This document shows positions 2,392-23,165 of a stretch of DNA of 64,000 nt, in pieces. Within the stretch, counting starts at the first letter, position 1. Every line of letters starts with the position of its first letter. The DNA comes from Mariniplasma anaerobium (GTDB taxonomy: Bacteria; Bacillota_I; Bacilli_A; Acholeplasmatales; Acholeplasmataceae). The notes under the pieces are model-generated. The model searched no databases, was not told where the DNA came from, and worked only from the letters and a program-made list of their open reading frames with translations. The stretch covers positions 310,001 through 374,000 of the forward strand of contig NZ_AP024412.1 in the NCBI RefSeq assembly GCF_016865445.1, in the 5' to 3' direction. Both the position numbers and the translations under genes were made by a program.

Positions 2392-3299
2392 TGAACAAAT
2401 ATATAGAAATACACCCAGATATTCAAAAAGCTTTAGATGAAAAAAAGCCAGTTGTTGCTTTAGAATCAACAATTATATCACATGGTATGCCTTATCCTGA
2501 AAATGTCGCAATGGCATTAAAAGTTGAGCAAATCATTAAAGCAGAAGGTGCTATGCCTGCTACAATTGCGATTATAGATGGTGTGATTAAAGTGGGGCTT
2601 ACAGAAGATGAAATTAAATATTTAGCGCAAAAGAAAGATGTCTTAAAAGTAAGCAAAAGAGATTTTGGATATTGTGTTTCTCAAAAGAAAACAGGTGCAA
2701 CTACAGTATCAGGAACCATGTTAGTTGCTAACATGGCAGGTATAAAAGTATTTGCTACTGGTGGTATCGGTGGCGTGCATCGTGGCGCAGAATTATCATT
2801 TGATATTTCAAGAGATTTAGAAGAATTAGCAGAACTTGATGTAGCAGTTATATGTGCAGGAGCTAAGTCAATTCTAGATTTAGGATTAACTTTAGAATAC
2901 CTAGAAACAAAAGGTGTTGAATTAATAGGATATCAAACTAAAGAGCTACCAGCATTTTACTCTAGAGAAAGTGGATTTGATTTGGAAATTAAATTAGATA
3001 CTCCAAAAGAAATTGCAGATCTAATGAAAGCGAAATGGTCTTTAGGTATTAAAGGCGGTATGGTGATTGCTAATCCAATTCCTAAGGCTTTTAGCCAAGA
3101 TGCTAAGATGATGAATGAAGTTATAACAAAAGCATTACAAGAGGCTAAATTAGAAGGTATTAAAGGTAAAGATGTAACACCATTCTTGCTAGCTAAGGTT
3201 AAAGAATTAACAAAAGGTGTTAGCCTAGAAGCTAATCTTGAGTTAGTTTATAATAACGCAAGACTTGCAGCACAAATAGCTAAGTCATACAATAATTAA
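2391..3299 (+). CDS. psuG: Pseudouridine-5'-phosphate glycosidase
   Basis: A 302-residue enzyme that reversibly cleaves the C-C glycosidic bond of pseudouridine 5'-phosphate to uracil and ribose 5-phosphate. It has the hallmark N-terminal block VALESTIISHGMPYPEN and the later block FATGGIGGVHRG, typical of the IndA/PsuG family, and it matches the family's usual length of about 300 residues. It is coupled to psuK. Uracil released here could be salvaged by upp (28223-28849), and ribose 5-phosphate connects to rpiB (27784-28230), so both products have a use encoded in this window. Confidence 0.93.
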   Translation: MNKYIEIHPDIQKALDEKKPVVALESTIISHGMPYPENVAMALKVEQIIKAEGAMPATIAIIDGVIKVGLTEDEIKYLAQKKDVLKVSKRDFGYCVSQKKTGATTVSGTMLVANMAGIKVFATGGIGGVHRGAELSFDISRDLEELAELDVAVICAGAKSILDLGLTLEYLETKGVELIGYQTKELPAFYSRESGFDLEIKLDTPKEIADLMKAKWSLGIKGGMVIANPIPKAFSQDAKMMNEVITKALQEAKLEGIKGKDVTPFLLAKVKELTKGVSLEANLELVYNNARLAAQIAKSYNN

Positions 3300-15704: not shown

Positions 15705-17000
15705 ATGAATGATGATACCATAAAACTACTTAATCTCGAACATATCGATCATTTAATTGAATCGATAAGTTCTATTTCTTTAGAAGGTCTAATTGAGATG
15801 CATATTAAACTTTTTAAGTCTCCTCAAACATGCCCAAATTGTCTGAATGAGACTGAGCGTTTCCATAGTTTCAGAATTAGATCTATTACCCATAGTGTTC
15901 TCATAGACAAGAAGTATCTTCTTATCTATTATGCTAGAAGATATAAATGTCTATGCTGTGGGAAAGTCTTTTATGAAAAAAATCCTTTTTCTAAAAGATA
16001 TGAATCTATATCAACGTACACTAAATTATCTATTTTAGAACATTTAAAAGATTATACACATACCTTTACTTCTGCAGCTAATGCTTACTTTGTTTCTAAA
16101 CAGTCAGTTATCAACATCTTTGATCATTTTGTCGAGGCCAGGAGAAGACTTCTTCCAGAAGTTATTTGTATGGATGAGTTCTATACTTCAAAAGTCTCAA
16201 AATATAAGTATGCTTGCGTCCTTTTTGATTTTAGGAATCATAAACTTATTGATATTTATCCAACAAGGCATAAAAATTACTTGATTAAAGTTTTTTCAAG
16301 ATTTCCCAAAGCTGAGAAGATTCGTGTAAAGGCATTTGTTATTGATATGTGGCCATCTTACAAGGAAGTTATTGAACGGGCGTTTCCTCATGCTTTAATT
16401 GCTGTAGACTCATTTCATATCATTAGAAACTTAAATGAGGCGATACGCCATATAAGAATTGAAGTCATGAATAAATATAAATCACACAAAAGTAATCCAA
16501 TACATGAGGATATGTATTATTATATGCTAAAGAAGTTTCACTATTTTTTTCTTAAAAACTACGAGAATATTTTTGATGGAAAGATTCGTATACAAAAACT
16601 TCAAACCTCTTGGCATAAATCTACAATTCTTGATTACTTATTATCCATAGATGATATACTCAAATCTGCTTATCGTCTAAAAGAGAGATATCAAGAATTT
16701 AACTTAACCGCAGAGTATGAAACTTGTGATGAAGAACTTGACGATCTTATACGTCTGTTTAAAAATCACGATCATCGACTGTTCAGGGATTTTGGAAAGA
16801 TGATTCAACGATGGAAAATTGAGATCAAAAATTCTTTTTATAGGGTGGACAATAGACGACTTTCAAATGGTCCTATTGAGGGTGTTAATTCAAGAATAAA
16901 AACAGTCATCAAATCTTCAAATGGTATTAAAAACTTTTATAGATTAAGAAACCGCTTAATTTTCTCCATTAATAAAGATGTTCCCATTAAATTAAAATAA
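15705..17000 (+). CDS. ISL3 family transposase
   Basis: A 431-residue DDE transposase. An N-terminal zinc ribbon is visible (CPNCLNETERFHSF at about residue 43, RYKCLCCGKVFYEKNPF at about 82), then a helix-turn-helix (SAANAYFVSKQSVINIFDHF), and the catalytic core with CMDEF, VIDMWPSY and the C-terminal NGPIEGVNSRIKTV, whose glutamate completes the triad. Length is normal for the family and no frame break is seen. Start with GAGAGG in the hairpin arm described separately. Confidence 0.93.
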   Translation: MNDDTIKLLNLEHIDHLIESISSISLEGLIEMHIKLFKSPQTCPNCLNETERFHSFRIRSITHSVLIDKKYLLIYYARRYKCLCCGKVFYEKNPFSKRYESISTYTKLSILEHLKDYTHTFTSAANAYFVSKQSVINIFDHFVEARRRLLPEVICMDEFYTSKVSKYKYACVLFDFRNHKLIDIYPTRHKNYLIKVFSRFPKAEKIRVKAFVIDMWPSYKEVIERAFPHALIAVDSFHIIRNLNEAIRHIRIEVMNKYKSHKSNPIHEDMYYYMLKKFHYFFLKNYENIFDGKIRIQKLQTSWHKSTILDYLLSIDDILKSAYRLKERYQEFNLTAEYETCDEELDDLIRLFKNHDHRLFRDFGKMIQRWKIEIKNSFYRVDNRRLSNGPIEGVNSRIKTVIKSSNGIKNFYRLRNRLIFSINKDVPIKLK

Positions 17001-17171: not shown

Positions 17172-17579
17172 TTATGATTCTTTATGGTTGATCATGTCGT
17201 TAAGTTGATCAACTTCTTTTTTATATTTTTTAGAGACGATATAAAATACAATACCATAAATAATACCTACAAAGATAAATACAATATAAATAAACGATGA
17301 AAATCTAAATAAAGCTGTTCCATAAACATTTCTAATCACAAGAATAGCTGGGATTAATACTAAATATCCAATGATTGCGTGTATAAGACCATTACCTTCC
17401 TCTAGCTTAAATAACCATATACTAAAAGATAAGAAGATAGAAACGATGAATATGCCATAAGAGACCAGAGCAAAAGGCATTTTCAAATCTGTTCTTCTAT
17501 AAACGATAATAGATAGTATCAGAAACAAAAGACTCATAAAGAAAAAACTTTTTAGGTATATATCTGCATATTTTTTCAT
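17172..17579 (-). CDS. DUF3021 family membrane protein
   Basis: A 135-residue protein with four hydrophobic segments and a short charged C-terminus (KKYKKEVDQLNDMI). Size, topology and the 4-base overlap (ATGA) with the upstream LytTR gene match the DUF3021 partners that accompany small LytTR regulators in Firmicutes. The partner may act as a membrane anti-activator or sensor; that is known only by analogy. Confidence 0.78.
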   Translation of the reverse strand: MKKYADIYLKSFFFMSLLFLILSIIVYRRTDLKMPFALVSYGIFIVSIFLSFSIWLFKLEEGNGLIHAIIGYLVLIPAILVIRNVYGTALFRFSSFIYIVFIFVGIIYGIVFYIVSKKYKKEVDQLNDMINHKES

Positions 17580-18022
17580 GTGTTTTGACCTCCTAGTTTT
17601 TCTTTTAGTTTACTCACATACAATCTTGAAATCATAACTCGATCATCATTGTCTAATCTTGCTTCCATGCGGCCATTGATAAAAGATTTAAATTTAACAA
17701 TCTTTTTTGTATTTACAATCGTGCTTTTATTTACTCTTAAAAAAGGTGTAAAAGCTAATTTCTCTTCAAGTTGATATAGTTTTTGATCGATATTGTATAC
17801 ATCTTGTTTTGTATAGACAAATACTTGATGACCAAGTGCATCAATATAATAAATATCATGAGGATCTAATTGAAAGAATTGGTCATCTTTTTTGCATACT
17901 AAATGAAGATTGTAATAAGTTAAAGCATTTTTAATCTCTTCAACTTTTTCATCTTCATTTTGGCATTTGATTATAATTTCAATTTCTTTTTGGTTTTTGT
18001 CTTTTACAATCGTCAATTTCAT
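17576..18022 (-). CDS. LytTR-type DNA-binding response regulator, no receiver domain
   Basis: A 148-residue transcription factor. The C-terminal half is a LytTR domain (DIYYIDALGHQVFVYT; FLRVNKSTIVNTKKIVKF; MISRLYVSKLKEKL). The N-terminal ~45 residues are not a phosphoreceiver. It is sandwiched in a three-gene operon, sharing single-base or 4-base overlaps with both neighbours. LytTR proteins bind paired direct repeats; the targets are probably the operon's own promoter region. Confidence 0.88.
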   Translation of the reverse strand: MKLTIVKDKNQKEIEIIIKCQNEDEKVEEIKNALTYYNLHLVCKKDDQFFQLDPHDIYYIDALGHQVFVYTKQDVYNIDQKLYQLEEKLAFTPFLRVNKSTIVNTKKIVKFKSFINGRMEARLDNDDRVMISRLYVSKLKEKLGGQNT

Positions 18023-18745: not shown

Positions 18746-18774
18746 TTGAAAAAGGGTCATATTATTGATATAAT
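18746..18774 (+). promoter_or_regulatory. gdpP-rplI-dnaB promoter
   Basis: TTGAAA, 17 bases, TATAAT with an extended -10 (TGaTATAAT). An ACCCTTTT/AAAAGGGT inverted repeat flanks the -35 region (18704-18711 and about 18750-18757). Confidence 0.82.
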
Positions 18775-18796
18775 ATGACTAAAGTAGGTGAGCCAT

Positions 18797-21232
18797 ATGA
18801 AACGTTGGATTTTGTTAGGAAGCGTCTTAGTTCTTTTAGGATTAAGTATTTATTTATTTTTACCATATGCTTCTTTTGAGTCAATTGAAGAAATTTTAAG
18901 TTTTTCTTTTTTAATCTTTAGTGTTGTTGTTGTGTTCGTAGGCTTATATTATAATTTAAATTTTCAAACAAGACAAAAGATTAAAACTTTACAAAATCGT
19001 CTATCTATGTGGACAAAACTATCCTACCATGTGAATCAAGTTGGTGATGAAGTTTTTAACGAACTTCCGATTGGTGTGATTGCATGCGATGAAACTTTTG
19101 AAGTTAAATGGGCTAACCCTCATGCAAAAATTATATTTGAACAAAAAATTGATGGAAAAAATCTTAAGGATATCAGTGAAAAACTTTATTCACAAGCAAA
19201 TTCAAATAAAGTAAAATTTATTGTTGATATTAAAGGTAATCAATATGATGTAACATATAGACCAGATATCAATTTCTTTTATTTATTTAATGTAACTGAA
19301 AGAGAAGAAGTAAGAAAAAAATATAGCGAACAAATACCAGCTTTAGGTATTATTTATCTCGATAATTTAGATGAAGCTTTAGGCTCACTAGATGTTTCAG
19401 AACAATCATCACTTAAAGGTGAATACTTAGCTGCAATTAATGACTGGGCTCATTTATATGATGGATATTTAAAACCTTATTCTGATGAACGTATCTTTTT
19501 AATTTGTTATCGTAAAAATCTTGATTTAATGATTGAGAAAAAATTTGAACTCTTAGATAAGATAAGAGATATCTCTAATGAAAATAAAGTAAGAGTTTCT
19601 ATTTCAATGGGTATTGCTTCTTGGGATATTGATTATGAAGCATTAGGTGTTTATGCACAAAATGCAGTCGAGCTTGCTGAAAAGCGTGGTGGAGATCAAG
19701 TTGTGGTTAATATTCAAAATCAAAAGATTATATATTTTGGTGCTAAAAATGATGCATCAAGTAAAAGTTCTAGAGTTGGCGTTAGAATTAATGCTCAAAC
19801 GATAAAAGATTTTATTGACCATTCAAGTAAGGTTTTTATTATGGGACATAATCAAGCAGATATGGATGCATTTGGATCGATGATTGCTTGTTATCACATG
19901 GCCAAAGTTTCTAATAAACCAATTTATCTGATTGTAGATATGGATAAAATGGATCGTACCGTTCAAAAAATCATAAATATTGTCAAAGATGACATTAAAG
20001 AAATATTAGAACATATGATTACAACTAAAGAAGCTTTAGAACTATTAGATAGTCAATCAACACTTATGATATTAGATACGCAATCGCCTAAGATTGCGAT
20101 GAATGCAGAAGTTTTAACAAAAACAGAACAGATTATCGTCATTGACCACCATAGAGTTGGAGATGAAGGATTTAATGCAATGTTTTCAGTTATTGAATCT
20201 TCAGCATCATCTACCATAGAGCTTGTAATGGAACTTCTAGGATTTTATAATATGAACGAAGAAATTCATATTTCACCTGTTGAAGCTACCATGATGTATG
20301 CTGGATTGGTTGTAGATACCAATAATTTCGTCTATAGAACTGGATCAAGAACATTTGAAGTAGCTGCACAATTAAAAGACTTAGGTGCGGATACATCAGA
20401 AGTTAAAACATGGCTTAGAAAAGACTTTTTAAGAACCATGGAAATTAATAAATTATTAAGTCATGTAGAAATCTTTTTAGGGCATTTTGCATTTGTAGTG
20501 ACCAGAGATATTTATGATGACAGAATTTTATTAGCACAAGTTGCTGATGCTGCACTACAAATTAATGATATAGATGCTGCATTTACAATTTCAAGAATGA
20601 GTGAAGATACCATAGGTATTAGTGCTAGAAGTTTTCAAAAGGTTAATGTACAAGTATTATTAGAAGCAATTGGCGGAGGCGGACACTTTAGTGTCGCAGC
20701 TGCTCAAATAAAAAATAGATCAATTAAAGAAGTCGTGGATGATTTAAAAAACATGATAGAATTAGAATATGGTCAAGGAGGAGAAATCGTGAAAGTTATA
20801 TTACAAGAAGATGTAAAAGGTAAAGGTAAGAAAAATCAAATTATCGAAGTTGCAAACGGGTATGGTCAATTTCTTGTCAATCAAAAAAAGGCAGTTCTTG
20901 CAACTGATGAAGCCCTTGATGCATTAGAAAAAGAAAAACAGGAAATCTTAGAAGCAAATCAAAGACATATTGCATTAATGAAATCTTTAAAAGGTGAAAT
21001 TGATGGAAAGAAAGTAACGTTAGGTATTCAAATTGGAAAAGATGGAAAACTCTTTGGAGCTATTACAACAAAACAAATTGTTGAAGAATTTGAAAAAGAA
21101 CATCATATTTTAATTGATAAGAAAAAAGTAGAATTGCAATCTGAAATAAATTCTGTTGGAATTTATACAGCATTTGTAACACTAAATAAAGAAATTAAGG
21201 CGCAATTTGAAGTACATATCGTAGAAAAGTAG
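18797..21232 (+). CDS. gdpP-rplI: GdpP-type cyclic-di-AMP phosphodiesterase fused in frame to ribosomal protein L9
   Basis: An 811-residue open frame. Residues 1-55 hold two membrane helices. A PAS-like segment follows, then a degenerate GGDEF domain whose signature reads YSDERIFLI, then a DHH domain (GHNQADMDAFG near 350; VIDHHRVG) and DHHA1 (GGGGHFSVAAAQ near 630). After residue 664, where a normal GdpP ends, the frame continues without a stop into a complete L9 sequence. The start is ATG 18797; the in-frame GTG at 18788 sits in the AGTAGGTGAG site. Such signalling/L9 fusions are known in Mollicutes; whether the long form accumulates is unclear, given the internal start annotated separately. 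Confidence 0.9.
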   Translation: MKRWILLGSVLVLLGLSIYLFLPYASFESIEEILSFSFLIFSVVVVFVGLYYNLNFQTRQKIKTLQNRLSMWTKLSYHVNQVGDEVFNELPIGVIACDETFEVKWANPHAKIIFEQKIDGKNLKDISEKLYSQANSNKVKFIVDIKGNQYDVTYRPDINFFYLFNVTEREEVRKKYSEQIPALGIIYLDNLDEALGSLDVSEQSSLKGEYLAAINDWAHLYDGYLKPYSDERIFLICYRKNLDLMIEKKFELLDKIRDISNENKVRVSISMGIASWDIDYEALGVYAQNAVELAEKRGGDQVVVNIQNQKIIYFGAKNDASSKSSRVGVRINAQTIKDFIDHSSKVFIMGHNQADMDAFGSMIACYHMAKVSNKPIYLIVDMDKMDRTVQKIINIVKDDIKEILEHMITTKEALELLDSQSTLMILDTQSPKIAMNAEVLTKTEQIIVIDHHRVGDEGFNAMFSVIESSASSTIELVMELLGFYNMNEEIHISPVEATMMYAGLVVDTNNFVYRTGSRTFEVAAQLKDLGADTSEVKTWLRKDFLRTMEINKLLSHVEIFLGHFAFVVTRDIYDDRILLAQVADAALQINDIDAAFTISRMSEDTIGISARSFQKVNVQVLLEAIGGGGHFSVAAAQIKNRSIKEVVDDLKNMIELEYGQGGEIVKVILQEDVKGKGKKNQIIEVANGYGQFLVNQKKAVLATDEALDALEKEKQEILEANQRHIALMKSLKGEIDGKKVTLGIQIGKDGKLFGAITTKQIVEEFEKEHHILIDKKKVELQSEINSVGIYTAFVTLNKEIKAQFEVHIVEK
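20789..21232 (+). CDS. rplI: 50S ribosomal protein L9 (probable separate translation start inside the gdpP frame)
   Basis: From the GTG at 20789 the frame encodes 147 residues, exactly L9 size. It begins MKVILQEDVKGKGKKNQI, continues GYGQFLVNQKKAV, and ends with the C-terminal domain (GKKVTLGIQIGKDGKLFGAIT). A strong AAGGAGGAG lies 6-8 bases upstream of this GTG, so ribosomes can probably initiate L9 independently. L9 binds the base of the L1 stalk. dnaB follows 10 bases after the stop, as in Firmicutes. Confidence 0.8.
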   Translation: MKVILQEDVKGKGKKNQIIEVANGYGQFLVNQKKAVLATDEALDALEKEKQEILEANQRHIALMKSLKGEIDGKKVTLGIQIGKDGKLFGAITTKQIVEEFEKEHHILIDKKKVELQSEINSVGIYTAFVTLNKEIKAQFEVHIVEK

Positions 21233-21242
21233 GATCTTAATT

Positions 21243-22595
21243 ATGGCAAAAAGTTTACCGTATCATAAAGAGGCAGAGCAATCTGTTATAGGCGCAATAT
21301 TTATAGATCCAAAGATAATCACTGCTGTTATCGATCAACTTAGCAAAGAGGATTTTTTTGAGCAATCTCATATCTTGATTTATCAAGCTATGCAAGATTT
21401 ATATAATGAAAATCTAAAAATCGATTATGCAAGTGTAGGATCTAAATTAGAACAAACTCAAAACTTAGTTAAAGCTGGAGGTATGAAATACATCCTTGAT
21501 TTAGCTGATTTTGTGCCATCTACAGCGCATATCGAAACTTATATTGATTTAGTTAAAGATGGATCTTTAAAAAGACAGGTCATTAATTTAGCTGATGAAA
21601 TTCTTAAAGAAGGATTTCAAGGTGAAATAGAAGCCAAAGATTATTTAACAAATGCTGAAGAACGTATTTTTGCATTAGCGCAAAAAAGAAAAACATCAGC
21701 TTTTGCAATCATCTCAGAAGTTATACAACAAGTTAAAGAAAAAACAGAAAAAAATAGAAATAAAAAAGGCGGTATTACTGGCCTTCATACTGGATTTGAA
21801 AATCTAGATCGCCTAACTGCTGGGCTTCAACCAGAGGAACTTATCATATTAGCAGCTAGACCTTCTATGGGGAAATCAGCTCTTGCGATGAATCTTGCTT
21901 TAAATATTGCTAAACATAATAAAGAAGGTAAAAGTGGCGTTGCGATTTTCTCACTTGAAATGAGTAACGAACAGCTTGCTGCACGTATGCTTTCTACTGA
22001 AGCAAATGTTGAAAATAATAAAATAAAAACTGGTAATCTAACTTCAAAAGAATGGCAACATCTTGAAGGTGGTATACAGTCTTTATCTTTATTAAATATT
22101 TCATTTGATGATTCTGCAAGTGTTACAGTTGCTGATATTAGAGCTAAATGTAGAAAATTATCACAAGAAGGTAAACTAGACTTTGTCATTATTGATTACC
22201 TACAATTAATTAAAGGTGATTCTAAATCAGGAAATAGACAAGAAGAAGTTGCAAGAATATCTCGAAGCTTAAAACAAATGGCTAGAGAATTAAAAATTCC
22301 AATTCTTGCTTTATCACAATTATCTCGTGAAGTTGAAAAGCGTGAAGATAAAAGACCTGTATTAGCAGATCTTCGTGAATCTGGAGCTATTGAACAAGAT
22401 GCCGATATCGTTATGTTTTTATATCGTGGAGATTATTACATCCATGATCCAGAAAAGAAAACTGGTGATGTTGAATTAAGCATCGCTAAGAATAGACAAG
22501 GTATGGCAGGTATTAGATTAAGTTTTAGATTTGATACAGAATATTCAAGATTTACTGCTAAAGAAGATCGAGAAGAAGAACTATATAGAGATTAA
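21243..22595 (+). CDS. dnaB: Replicative DNA helicase DnaB
   Basis: A 450-residue hexameric helicase (B. subtilis name dnaC). The N-terminal domain begins LPYHKEAEQSVIGAIF. The RecA-like domain has Walker A ARPSMGKSALAM (near 206), Walker B FVIIDYLQLI, and LSQLSREVEKREDKRP, LRESGAIEQDAD, the DnaB family motifs. No intein is present. Transcribed with gdpP-rplI. Confidence 0.97.
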   Translation: MAKSLPYHKEAEQSVIGAIFIDPKIITAVIDQLSKEDFFEQSHILIYQAMQDLYNENLKIDYASVGSKLEQTQNLVKAGGMKYILDLADFVPSTAHIETYIDLVKDGSLKRQVINLADEILKEGFQGEIEAKDYLTNAEERIFALAQKRKTSAFAIISEVIQQVKEKTEKNRNKKGGITGLHTGFENLDRLTAGLQPEELIILAARPSMGKSALAMNLALNIAKHNKEGKSGVAIFSLEMSNEQLAARMLSTEANVENNKIKTGNLTSKEWQHLEGGIQSLSLLNISFDDSASVTVADIRAKCRKLSQEGKLDFVIIDYLQLIKGDSKSGNRQEEVARISRSLKQMARELKIPILALSQLSREVEKREDKRPVLADLRESGAIEQDADIVMFLYRGDYYIHDPEKKTGDVELSIAKNRQGMAGIRLSFRFDTEYSRFTAKEDREEELYRD

Positions 22596-22648: not shown

Positions 22649-23083
22649 TTATTTAGTTGTTGCTGATAACATCCAAATGTGTTTATCAAAACTTGAAATT
22701 GTACCGATTAACATATCAGCAGTTACTTCATCGCCTAATTCTTGAGCAACTAATAACAATTCTTTTAATTCAGTATTAATAAGCTTGATATCATTTAAAA
22801 TGTGTTTAGCCATAACCATTGGTGCTTCTTTACCACTTGCTTCTTTTAATGAAGTAAGTTCTAAATAAGATTTAAGATTTGATACTGGTTGTCCACCGAT
22901 CATTAATAATCTTTCTGCGAATCCATCATATAATTCGTTCATTTCATCATATAATGCTTCAAATTTTTCATGTAATTGATAAAATTGAGGCCCTTCTACA
23001 TACCAGTGATAGTGATGTAACTTTGTGAAAAAAACGCTTAAGTTTGCAACTTGCTTGTTCAATCCTTTGAATAATTTTTCCAT
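22649..23083 (-). CDS. dps: Dps-like ferritin family DNA-protection/iron-storage protein
   Basis: A 144-residue four-helix protein that oxidises and stores iron and protects DNA from peroxide. The dinuclear ferroxidase signature is LHHYHWYVEGPQFYQLHEKF (residues 22-41), followed by EALYDEMNELYDGFAERL with the D/E ligands. The start is ATG 23083 (MEKLFKGLN) with AAGGGTTGG upstream; longer in-frame starts extend through the promoter. Monocistronic and divergent from prfA. Confidence 0.92.
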   Translation of the reverse strand: MEKLFKGLNKQVANLSVFFTKLHHYHWYVEGPQFYQLHEKFEALYDEMNELYDGFAERLLMIGGQPVSNLKSYLELTSLKEASGKEAPMVMAKHILNDIKLINTELKELLLVAQELGDEVTADMLIGTISSFDKHIWMLSATTK

Positions 23084-23120
23084 AATAATTTCCAACCCTT
23101 TCCTTTTCTTTACTGTCTTA

Positions 23121-23165
23121 ATTATAACACTATTTATAATACAGTGCAACCGATACGCATTGCAC
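23121..23165 (-). promoter_or_regulatory. dps promoter with overlapping inverted repeats
   Basis: The minus strand has TTGCAC (23149-23144), 17 bases, TATAAT (23126-23121). The -10 lies in ATTATAA-N6-TTATAAT (23121-23140), which resembles a PerR/Fur-type box with altered spacing. The -35 is one arm of GTGCAA-N10-TTGCAC (23144-23165). Oxidative or metal control is therefore plausible. Confidence 0.6.

Follow-up and report, generated by a model that had tools for sequence, protein, structure and literature searches.

The stretch of DNA analyzed here (the window, 64,000 nucleotides of the Mariniplasma anaerobium genome) carries on the forward strand, at positions 18797–21232, a single open frame in which a GdpP-type cyclic-di-AMP (c-di-AMP) phosphodiesterase is followed by ribosomal protein L9 with no stop codon between them, as the earlier note on this DNA had described. 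The frame can be read from a GTG at 18788 or an ATG at 18797 to a TAG ending at 21232, giving 814 or 811 amino acids, respectively. Position 18797 is the likely outer start because its Shine-Dalgarno energy is −10.7 kcal/mol versus −0.6 at the GTG. The 811-residue protein matched the NCBIfam model NF011110 over its full length (993 bits against a cut-off of 707; residues 35–811 on model positions 57–835 of 838), and its Pfam domains are in the order PAS_GdpP, GGDEF_GdpP, DHH, DHHA1, L9_N (residues 665–709) and L9_C (729–810).

The GdpP and L9 parts and the internal start

The GdpP part (18797–20758, +) consists of N-terminal hydrophobic helices, a PAS domain (residues 79–166), a degenerate GGDEF domain (186–310), a DHH domain (345–503) and a DHHA1 domain (575–654). 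The helices were taken from a structure model of the fusion, with two N-terminal helical stretches at residues 2–21 and 30–82 whose hydrophobicity was judged by eye only. It is the order of PAS, degenerate GGDEF, DHH and DHHA1 after an N-terminal membrane part that places the predicted protein in the GdpP family. The window translation contains the IVIDHHR (IDHHR) and GGGGH motifs, the DHHR columns and G-G-G-H were invariant in an alignment of 21 rows, and c-di-AMP hydrolysis is the predicted activity of this part. The linker codons between DHHA1 and L9 (20759–20788, +), which also house the L9 Shine-Dalgarno sequence, correspond in the model to a loop of ~5 residues (659–663) that follows a helix, precedes the first L9 strand and joins the two parts, whose relative placement is uncertain (pTM 0.52). 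The L9 coding part (20789–21232, +) matched Pfam L9_N and L9_C as well as TIGR00158 (100 bits versus 58.6), and TCAAGGAGGAGAAATCGTG puts the GTG at 20789 at L9 residue 1, so that the L9 part has 147 amino acids (20789–21229). The fused copy is the sole L9 of the genome, with a single PF01281 (L9_N) match. Its two domains, normal length and status as the only genomic copy mark it as a bL9, with a predicted role in 50S assembly.

The junction sequence is TCAAGGAGGAGAAATCGTGAAAGTT, with the GTG at 20789–20791 (+) as the codon for L9 residue 1 and the Shine-Dalgarno sequence AAGGAGG (−11.9 kcal/mol) at 20774–20780 (+), in agreement with the earlier claim of an internal start at the N-terminus of an L9 of normal length. 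This Shine-Dalgarno energy is the strongest among 437 internal in-frame start codons, drawn from 45 window frames of at least 200 amino acids, the next being −9.6. The anti-Shine-Dalgarno sequence is intact, since the two 16S genes found in the genome both end in GGATCACCTCCTTT. As judged from these features, the outer ATG at 18797 and the inner GTG at 20789 are both credible starts.

Just 5′ of the fusion gene lies a promoter-like element, TTGAAA-17-TATAAT (18746–18774, +), that matches the consensus at 11 of 12 positions and has a TG before its second hexamer. It was the best of 21 such sites in the scan, against 17.8 expected from shuffled sequence, and its function as a promoter is suggestive only; with these counts we make no claim for an internal promoter. 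The next gene is the replicative helicase gene dnaB (21243–22595, +; DnaB_C, 7.1e-102), in the usual gdpP–rplI–dnaB order. Three further genes were noted nearby: an ISL3-family transposase gene at 15705–17000 (+; DDE_Tnp_ISL3, 3.1e-47), with the rpsR region on one side and the gdpP-L9 and dnaB genes on the other; a LytTR regulator beside a DUF3021-like protein (just below the Pfam cut-off) at 17172–18022 (−), upstream of the fusion on the opposite strand; and a putative Dps or ferritin-like gene, identified by eye, at 22649–23149 (−), between dnaB and a release-factor-like gene and also on the opposite strand.

Distribution and origin of the fusion

In a search of the family, 87 of 88 genomes matched the fusion protein, and the complete loci among the matches listed run unbroken. 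The same open junction is present in a relative of 95% protein identity and in the other three genomes examined of the genus. A sequencing or assembly error that removed a stop codon or a frameshift is thus a practically negligible explanation, as these open junctions come from many separate assemblies. Class-wide, the fusion reaches families f2, f3, f7, f14, f17, f21 and f22 among the matches listed, and its carriers include Onion yellows phytoplasma OY-M, Candidatus Phytoplasma mali, metagenome-assembled genomes (MAGs) of Acholeplasmataceae and Anaeroplasmataceae, an Izimaplasma MAG and MAGs of gut Bacilli. L9 was found in 153 of 160, 83 of 90 and 39 of 43 genomes of three orders (275 of 293 in total), and among the matches listed nearly all of these copies sit in frames of ~800 codons. 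The remaining L9 frames were shorter ones, which we took to be cut at contig ends, and the free copies of the duplicated lineages described below; no genome with a free L9 alone was among the matches listed for the three orders. In G520 and G535 the short L9 frames (299 and 357 amino acids) lie inside longer coordinates, and four genomes with L9 (G009, G019, G049 and G056) that are absent from the matches listed for the first order were seen fused in the family search.

All four genomes examined of family f5 have split gdpP and rplI, and other Bacilli among the matches listed in the phylum search, which did not extend to any other class, have a free L9. The earlier note had called such fusions known in Mollicutes. 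The fusion is indeed known (NF011110), but that range was too narrow, as the fusion is wider than Mollicutes and also fills orders of uncultured Bacilli.

Several individual genomes require comment. G168, of the rplI-duplicating genus g83, is listed as 97% complete in 10 contigs and had no match to L9 or to the fusion. G054 has two equal-scoring fusion copies, one of which was used. A 397-residue L9 frame at L318 and L319 (G218 and G275) was rejected as another fusion, being a GC-rich open stretch in a frame that differs from that of the overlapping gdpP. The second L9 of G512 (L233) was not counted as a duplication because it is of a different type and 6% contamination is listed for this genome, and it is probably foreign sequence in the bin.

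The two genes are separate in 63 of 80 named loci, and 31 of those 63 share an ATGA overlap, the end of gdpP containing the L9 Shine-Dalgarno sequence. According to excerpts of two papers, gdpP and rplI of relatives lie side by side and are transcribed together (PMC4568413, PMC6398277), and in the second of these a gdpP deletion left 69 bp of the gene, preserving the L9 ribosome-binding site (PMC6398277). We propose that the ancestral gdpP–rplI pair already had the L9 ribosome-binding site inside the end of gdpP, with the genes often overlapping as ATGA, and that a small indel in the overlap would have brought gdpP and rplI into frame with the inner start kept. In a GdpP tree, all fused families and f5 formed one clade (support 0.996) within which the position of f5 was unplaced (0.22); both a single origin with reversal in f5 and an early-branching f5 are possible readings of this tree. 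The two f5 loci that were parsed, of the four, showed one ATGA overlap and one in-frame TAA just before L9.

The ease with which an ATGA overlap and a small indel can yield a fusion with its internal start intact would also suit a neutral history, in which two overlapping genes lost the stop codon between them, GdpP carries its L9 tail as a harmless passenger, and nothing beyond free L9 and GdpP activity is of importance. Set against this are the absence of any genome with free L9 alone among the matches listed for the three orders and two further observations, on linker stop codons and on selection, given below.

Conservation and loss of the internal start

The junctions compared were those of the fused matches listed in the family and class searches that reach the junction (for the class, among the matches listed), with L002 (a DHH paralogue) and L003 (a repeat of the fusion locus of the window) left out and the split loci L190 and L200 falling outside the set. 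In the 197 aligned fused junctions, the codon for L9 residue 1 was ATG in 172, GTG in 21, TTG in one, AAG in two and ACT in one, a start codon thus being present in 194 of 197. Valine at this residue was always encoded by GTG, which makes up 12.5% of the other valine codons in the same frames. Since a single substitution can replace methionine with valine only as ATG to GTG, the telling point is the absence of any later silent change of the GTG. The median Shine-Dalgarno energy was −10.2 at L9 residue 1 versus −1.5 at 3291 other internal methionine codons. When the codons of 193 single-copy loci (the four duplicated fusions being left out) were resampled synonymously, the observed energy was −9.84 versus −7.55 in the resampled sequences; p-values for this test and for the second-L9 test below ignore shared ancestry. 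The amino acids of the linker alone already favour a Shine-Dalgarno sequence, and codon choice strengthens it further. The first strong motif was in frame phase 0, 1 and 2 in 62, 53 and 10 loci, respectively. Because the Shine-Dalgarno sequence is stronger than in resampled sequences and is spread over different frame phases, it is not the by-product of one conserved peptide. Start codon and Shine-Dalgarno sequence are thus conserved beyond the constraint on the protein, as would be expected of in-frame internal initiation. Exceptions to this pattern are the phytoplasma loci L074, L075 and L076 (G073, G074 and G070), which keep the ATG, have no Shine-Dalgarno sequence and come from genomes with one L9 each.

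By parsimony, ~29 stop codons were expected over five codons of the linker that avoid the Shine-Dalgarno core (−8, −7, −6, −2 and −1), and none was found in 194 loci (three short ones, L088, L089 and L090, being left out), a count made on loci picked as unbroken frames, so that the L9 searches of the three orders are the less biased check and carry the claim of a stop-free junction. A passenger tail would have been expected to acquire such stops.

In five genomes, from two families, a second and free rplI lies immediately 3′ of the fusion. Three of these (G352, G358 and G364, of genus g83 in family f7) are the three with no start codon at the junction (AAG, AAG and ACT), and dnaB comes next at the G364 and G352 loci. 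The other two (G162 and G467, of family f3 in another order) have the order fusion, free rplI preceded by AAAGGAG, and dnaB; their fusions keep the ATG and lack a Shine-Dalgarno sequence (−1.1 and −1.9). None of the five fusions, then, has a Shine-Dalgarno sequence at L9 residue 1; ten more genomes of the order of G162 and G467, eight of them in the same genus, have kept it (−8.5 to −13.5). A weak Shine-Dalgarno sequence (above −3) was found in all five genomes with a second L9 versus 3 of 203 without one (Fisher 1.8e-8), where the test counts genomes, only about two events are independent, and the three exceptions are L074, L075 and L076. In an L9 tree the free and fused copies were sisters within each family (supports 96 in f7 and 75, which is moderate, in f3), and this grouping points to two separate tandem duplications.

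These lineages bear directly on the possibility that the fusion is the only product, with ribosomes that either use an L9 attached to the membrane or do without it, and with the internal start as a relic. L9 is non-essential in some bacteria, and there are genomes with no L9 match, such as G168. However, the start codon and Shine-Dalgarno sequence are conserved, and the genomes whose fusion lost the internal start are the very ones in which a free gene has appeared, so that we regard a fusion-only gene as very improbable. On the same evidence, it is very likely that free L9 is made from the inner start, and the suggestion of the earlier note that one mRNA could give both a fusion and a free L9 gains strong support from the conservation of that start and from the duplicated lineages.

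All five duplicated genomes retain an entire fused L9 domain. Among 191 complete single-copy fusions (L9 parts under 135 residues being left out), a pattern search recognized the N-domain motif G-aromatic-A/G/S-N/Q in 185 and the C-domain GKLFG-type motif in 180; of the four duplicated fusions searched in this way, none had either motif, and in the fused L9 of G467 both were judged absent by eye. We take both motifs to be ribosome (rRNA)-binding. The free L9 of all five genomes keeps the N-domain motif. In the three g83 genomes the free copy, too, has an altered C-domain motif, which makes the loss of that motif less specific. The fused L9 of G364 (L238) was modelled as a full L9 fold (pLDDT 93.4, from an input alignment made of L9s), with PDB 1div as its best match. 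Between G162 and G467, dN/dS (NG86) was 0.115 for the fused L9 versus 0.152 for GdpP and 0.133 for the free L9; between G364 and G358 it was 0.33 versus 0.14 and 0.16, respectively. For G352 against the other two g83 genomes the fused L9 gave 0.92 and 0.57, values near saturation that leave the constraint uncertain. In both close pairs for which it was measured, purifying selection thus acts on the fused L9, and strongly so in G162/G467. Such selection despite a free copy counts further against a harmless passenger, which we consider quite improbable; this reading, the fusion-only gene and the sequencing error were set aside on the evidence given for each.

A proposed dual-product gene

We propose that the locus is a dual-product gene, an overall explanation that we regard as likely. 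Translation from the ATG at 18797 would give a membrane GdpP with a complete L9 domain at its C-terminus, and separate initiation at AAGGAGG…GTG 20789 would give free L9, the sole source of L9 for the ribosome. The fused L9 would be an accessory domain of the phosphodiesterase, structural or regulatory, for which canonical ribosome binding is not needed. The architecture, the conserved start codon and Shine-Dalgarno sequence, the stop-free junction and the two duplicated lineages can be read directly from the sequences; from them we infer the production of both proteins and the accessory role of the fused L9. We consider it likely that cells make the fusion itself and that it is under selection. 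Because the fusion has lost its conserved L9 motifs and the internal ribosome-binding site after duplication (in three genomes the start codon too) and has kept its full L9 domain, the fused L9 would seem to have a selected role that is apparently not ordinary ribosome binding.

A different role would be that of a ribosome tether or sensor, in which the membrane phosphodiesterase attaches to ribosomes through its fused L9, so that c-di-AMP breakdown is tied to translation or ribosomes are brought to the membrane. In single-copy species the fused L9 is necessarily the ribosomal L9 sequence, with the N-domain motif kept as counted above, and the co-transcription of the two genes in relatives, reported in the excerpts cited above, also fits this role. 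Nevertheless, the duplicated lineages speak against tethering as a general role, because in both of them the fused L9 has lost the conserved N- and C-domain motifs and yet remains a complete, in-frame domain, under strong purifying selection in G162/G467. Tethering, which the earlier note had left open, is therefore unlikely as a general role and is still compatible with the data for the species of the window. As a reasoned guess, we slightly favour a fused L9 that works for GdpP over one that tethers ribosomes.

On a more novel reading, to which we give slightly less than even odds, one 147-codon stretch would have done both jobs for most of the history of the clade; duplication of rplI would then have freed at least two lineages from the conflict and allowed the fused copy to lose ribosomal residues. 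L9 has few known roles, and we know of no c-di-AMP phosphodiesterase that uses a ribosomal protein as a working domain. On the same novel reading, L9 would have become a permanent regulatory part of a second-messenger enzyme; in a bolder form the phosphodiesterase would sense the status of the ribosome or of L9, and c-di-AMP turnover would follow translation. The clade, which includes phytoplasmas and Acholeplasmataceae, is a ready comparison between one sequence in both roles (single-copy species) and roles that are separated (duplicated species), and for this reason the role of L9 for GdpP is directly testable. In practical terms, annotation that counts the fusion only hides a free ribosomal protein, and deletion of gdpP in these organisms would also remove L9. 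The fusion was already named in annotation; our analysis adds its breadth, the conserved inner start, the overlapping-gene origin and the duplicated lineages. Our search of the literature available to us found no description of a GdpP–L9 fusion, one paper mentioning, in the excerpt available, the operon only (PMC4568413).

NF011110 (PRK14538), a putative bifunctional signaling protein/50S ribosomal protein L9, has the same domain order and a full-length match; its name implies one bifunctional protein, and the portion of the entry available mentions neither an internal start nor duplicated lineages. The split gdpP (yybT), rplI, dnaB operon of Bacillus and other Firmicutes has the same genes in the same order and the L9 ribosome-binding site inside gdpP, but a stop codon separates its two proteins, unlike in the fusion of the window. 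In eukaryotic ubiquitin–ribosomal protein fusions the ribosomal protein is the C-terminal part and is separated by protease cleavage; the ribosomal protein is C-terminal in the window as well, where a second start site would be used instead of cleavage. Cas11 is the C-terminal part of a large subunit. In the internal translation of Cas11b in type I-B CRISPR-Cas, as described in an excerpt, a single reading frame yields both a long protein and, by internal initiation, a shorter functional subunit (PMC11899642), whereas in the window, where internal initiation is deduced from sequence, the short product would be a core ribosomal protein and the long one a membrane signalling enzyme.
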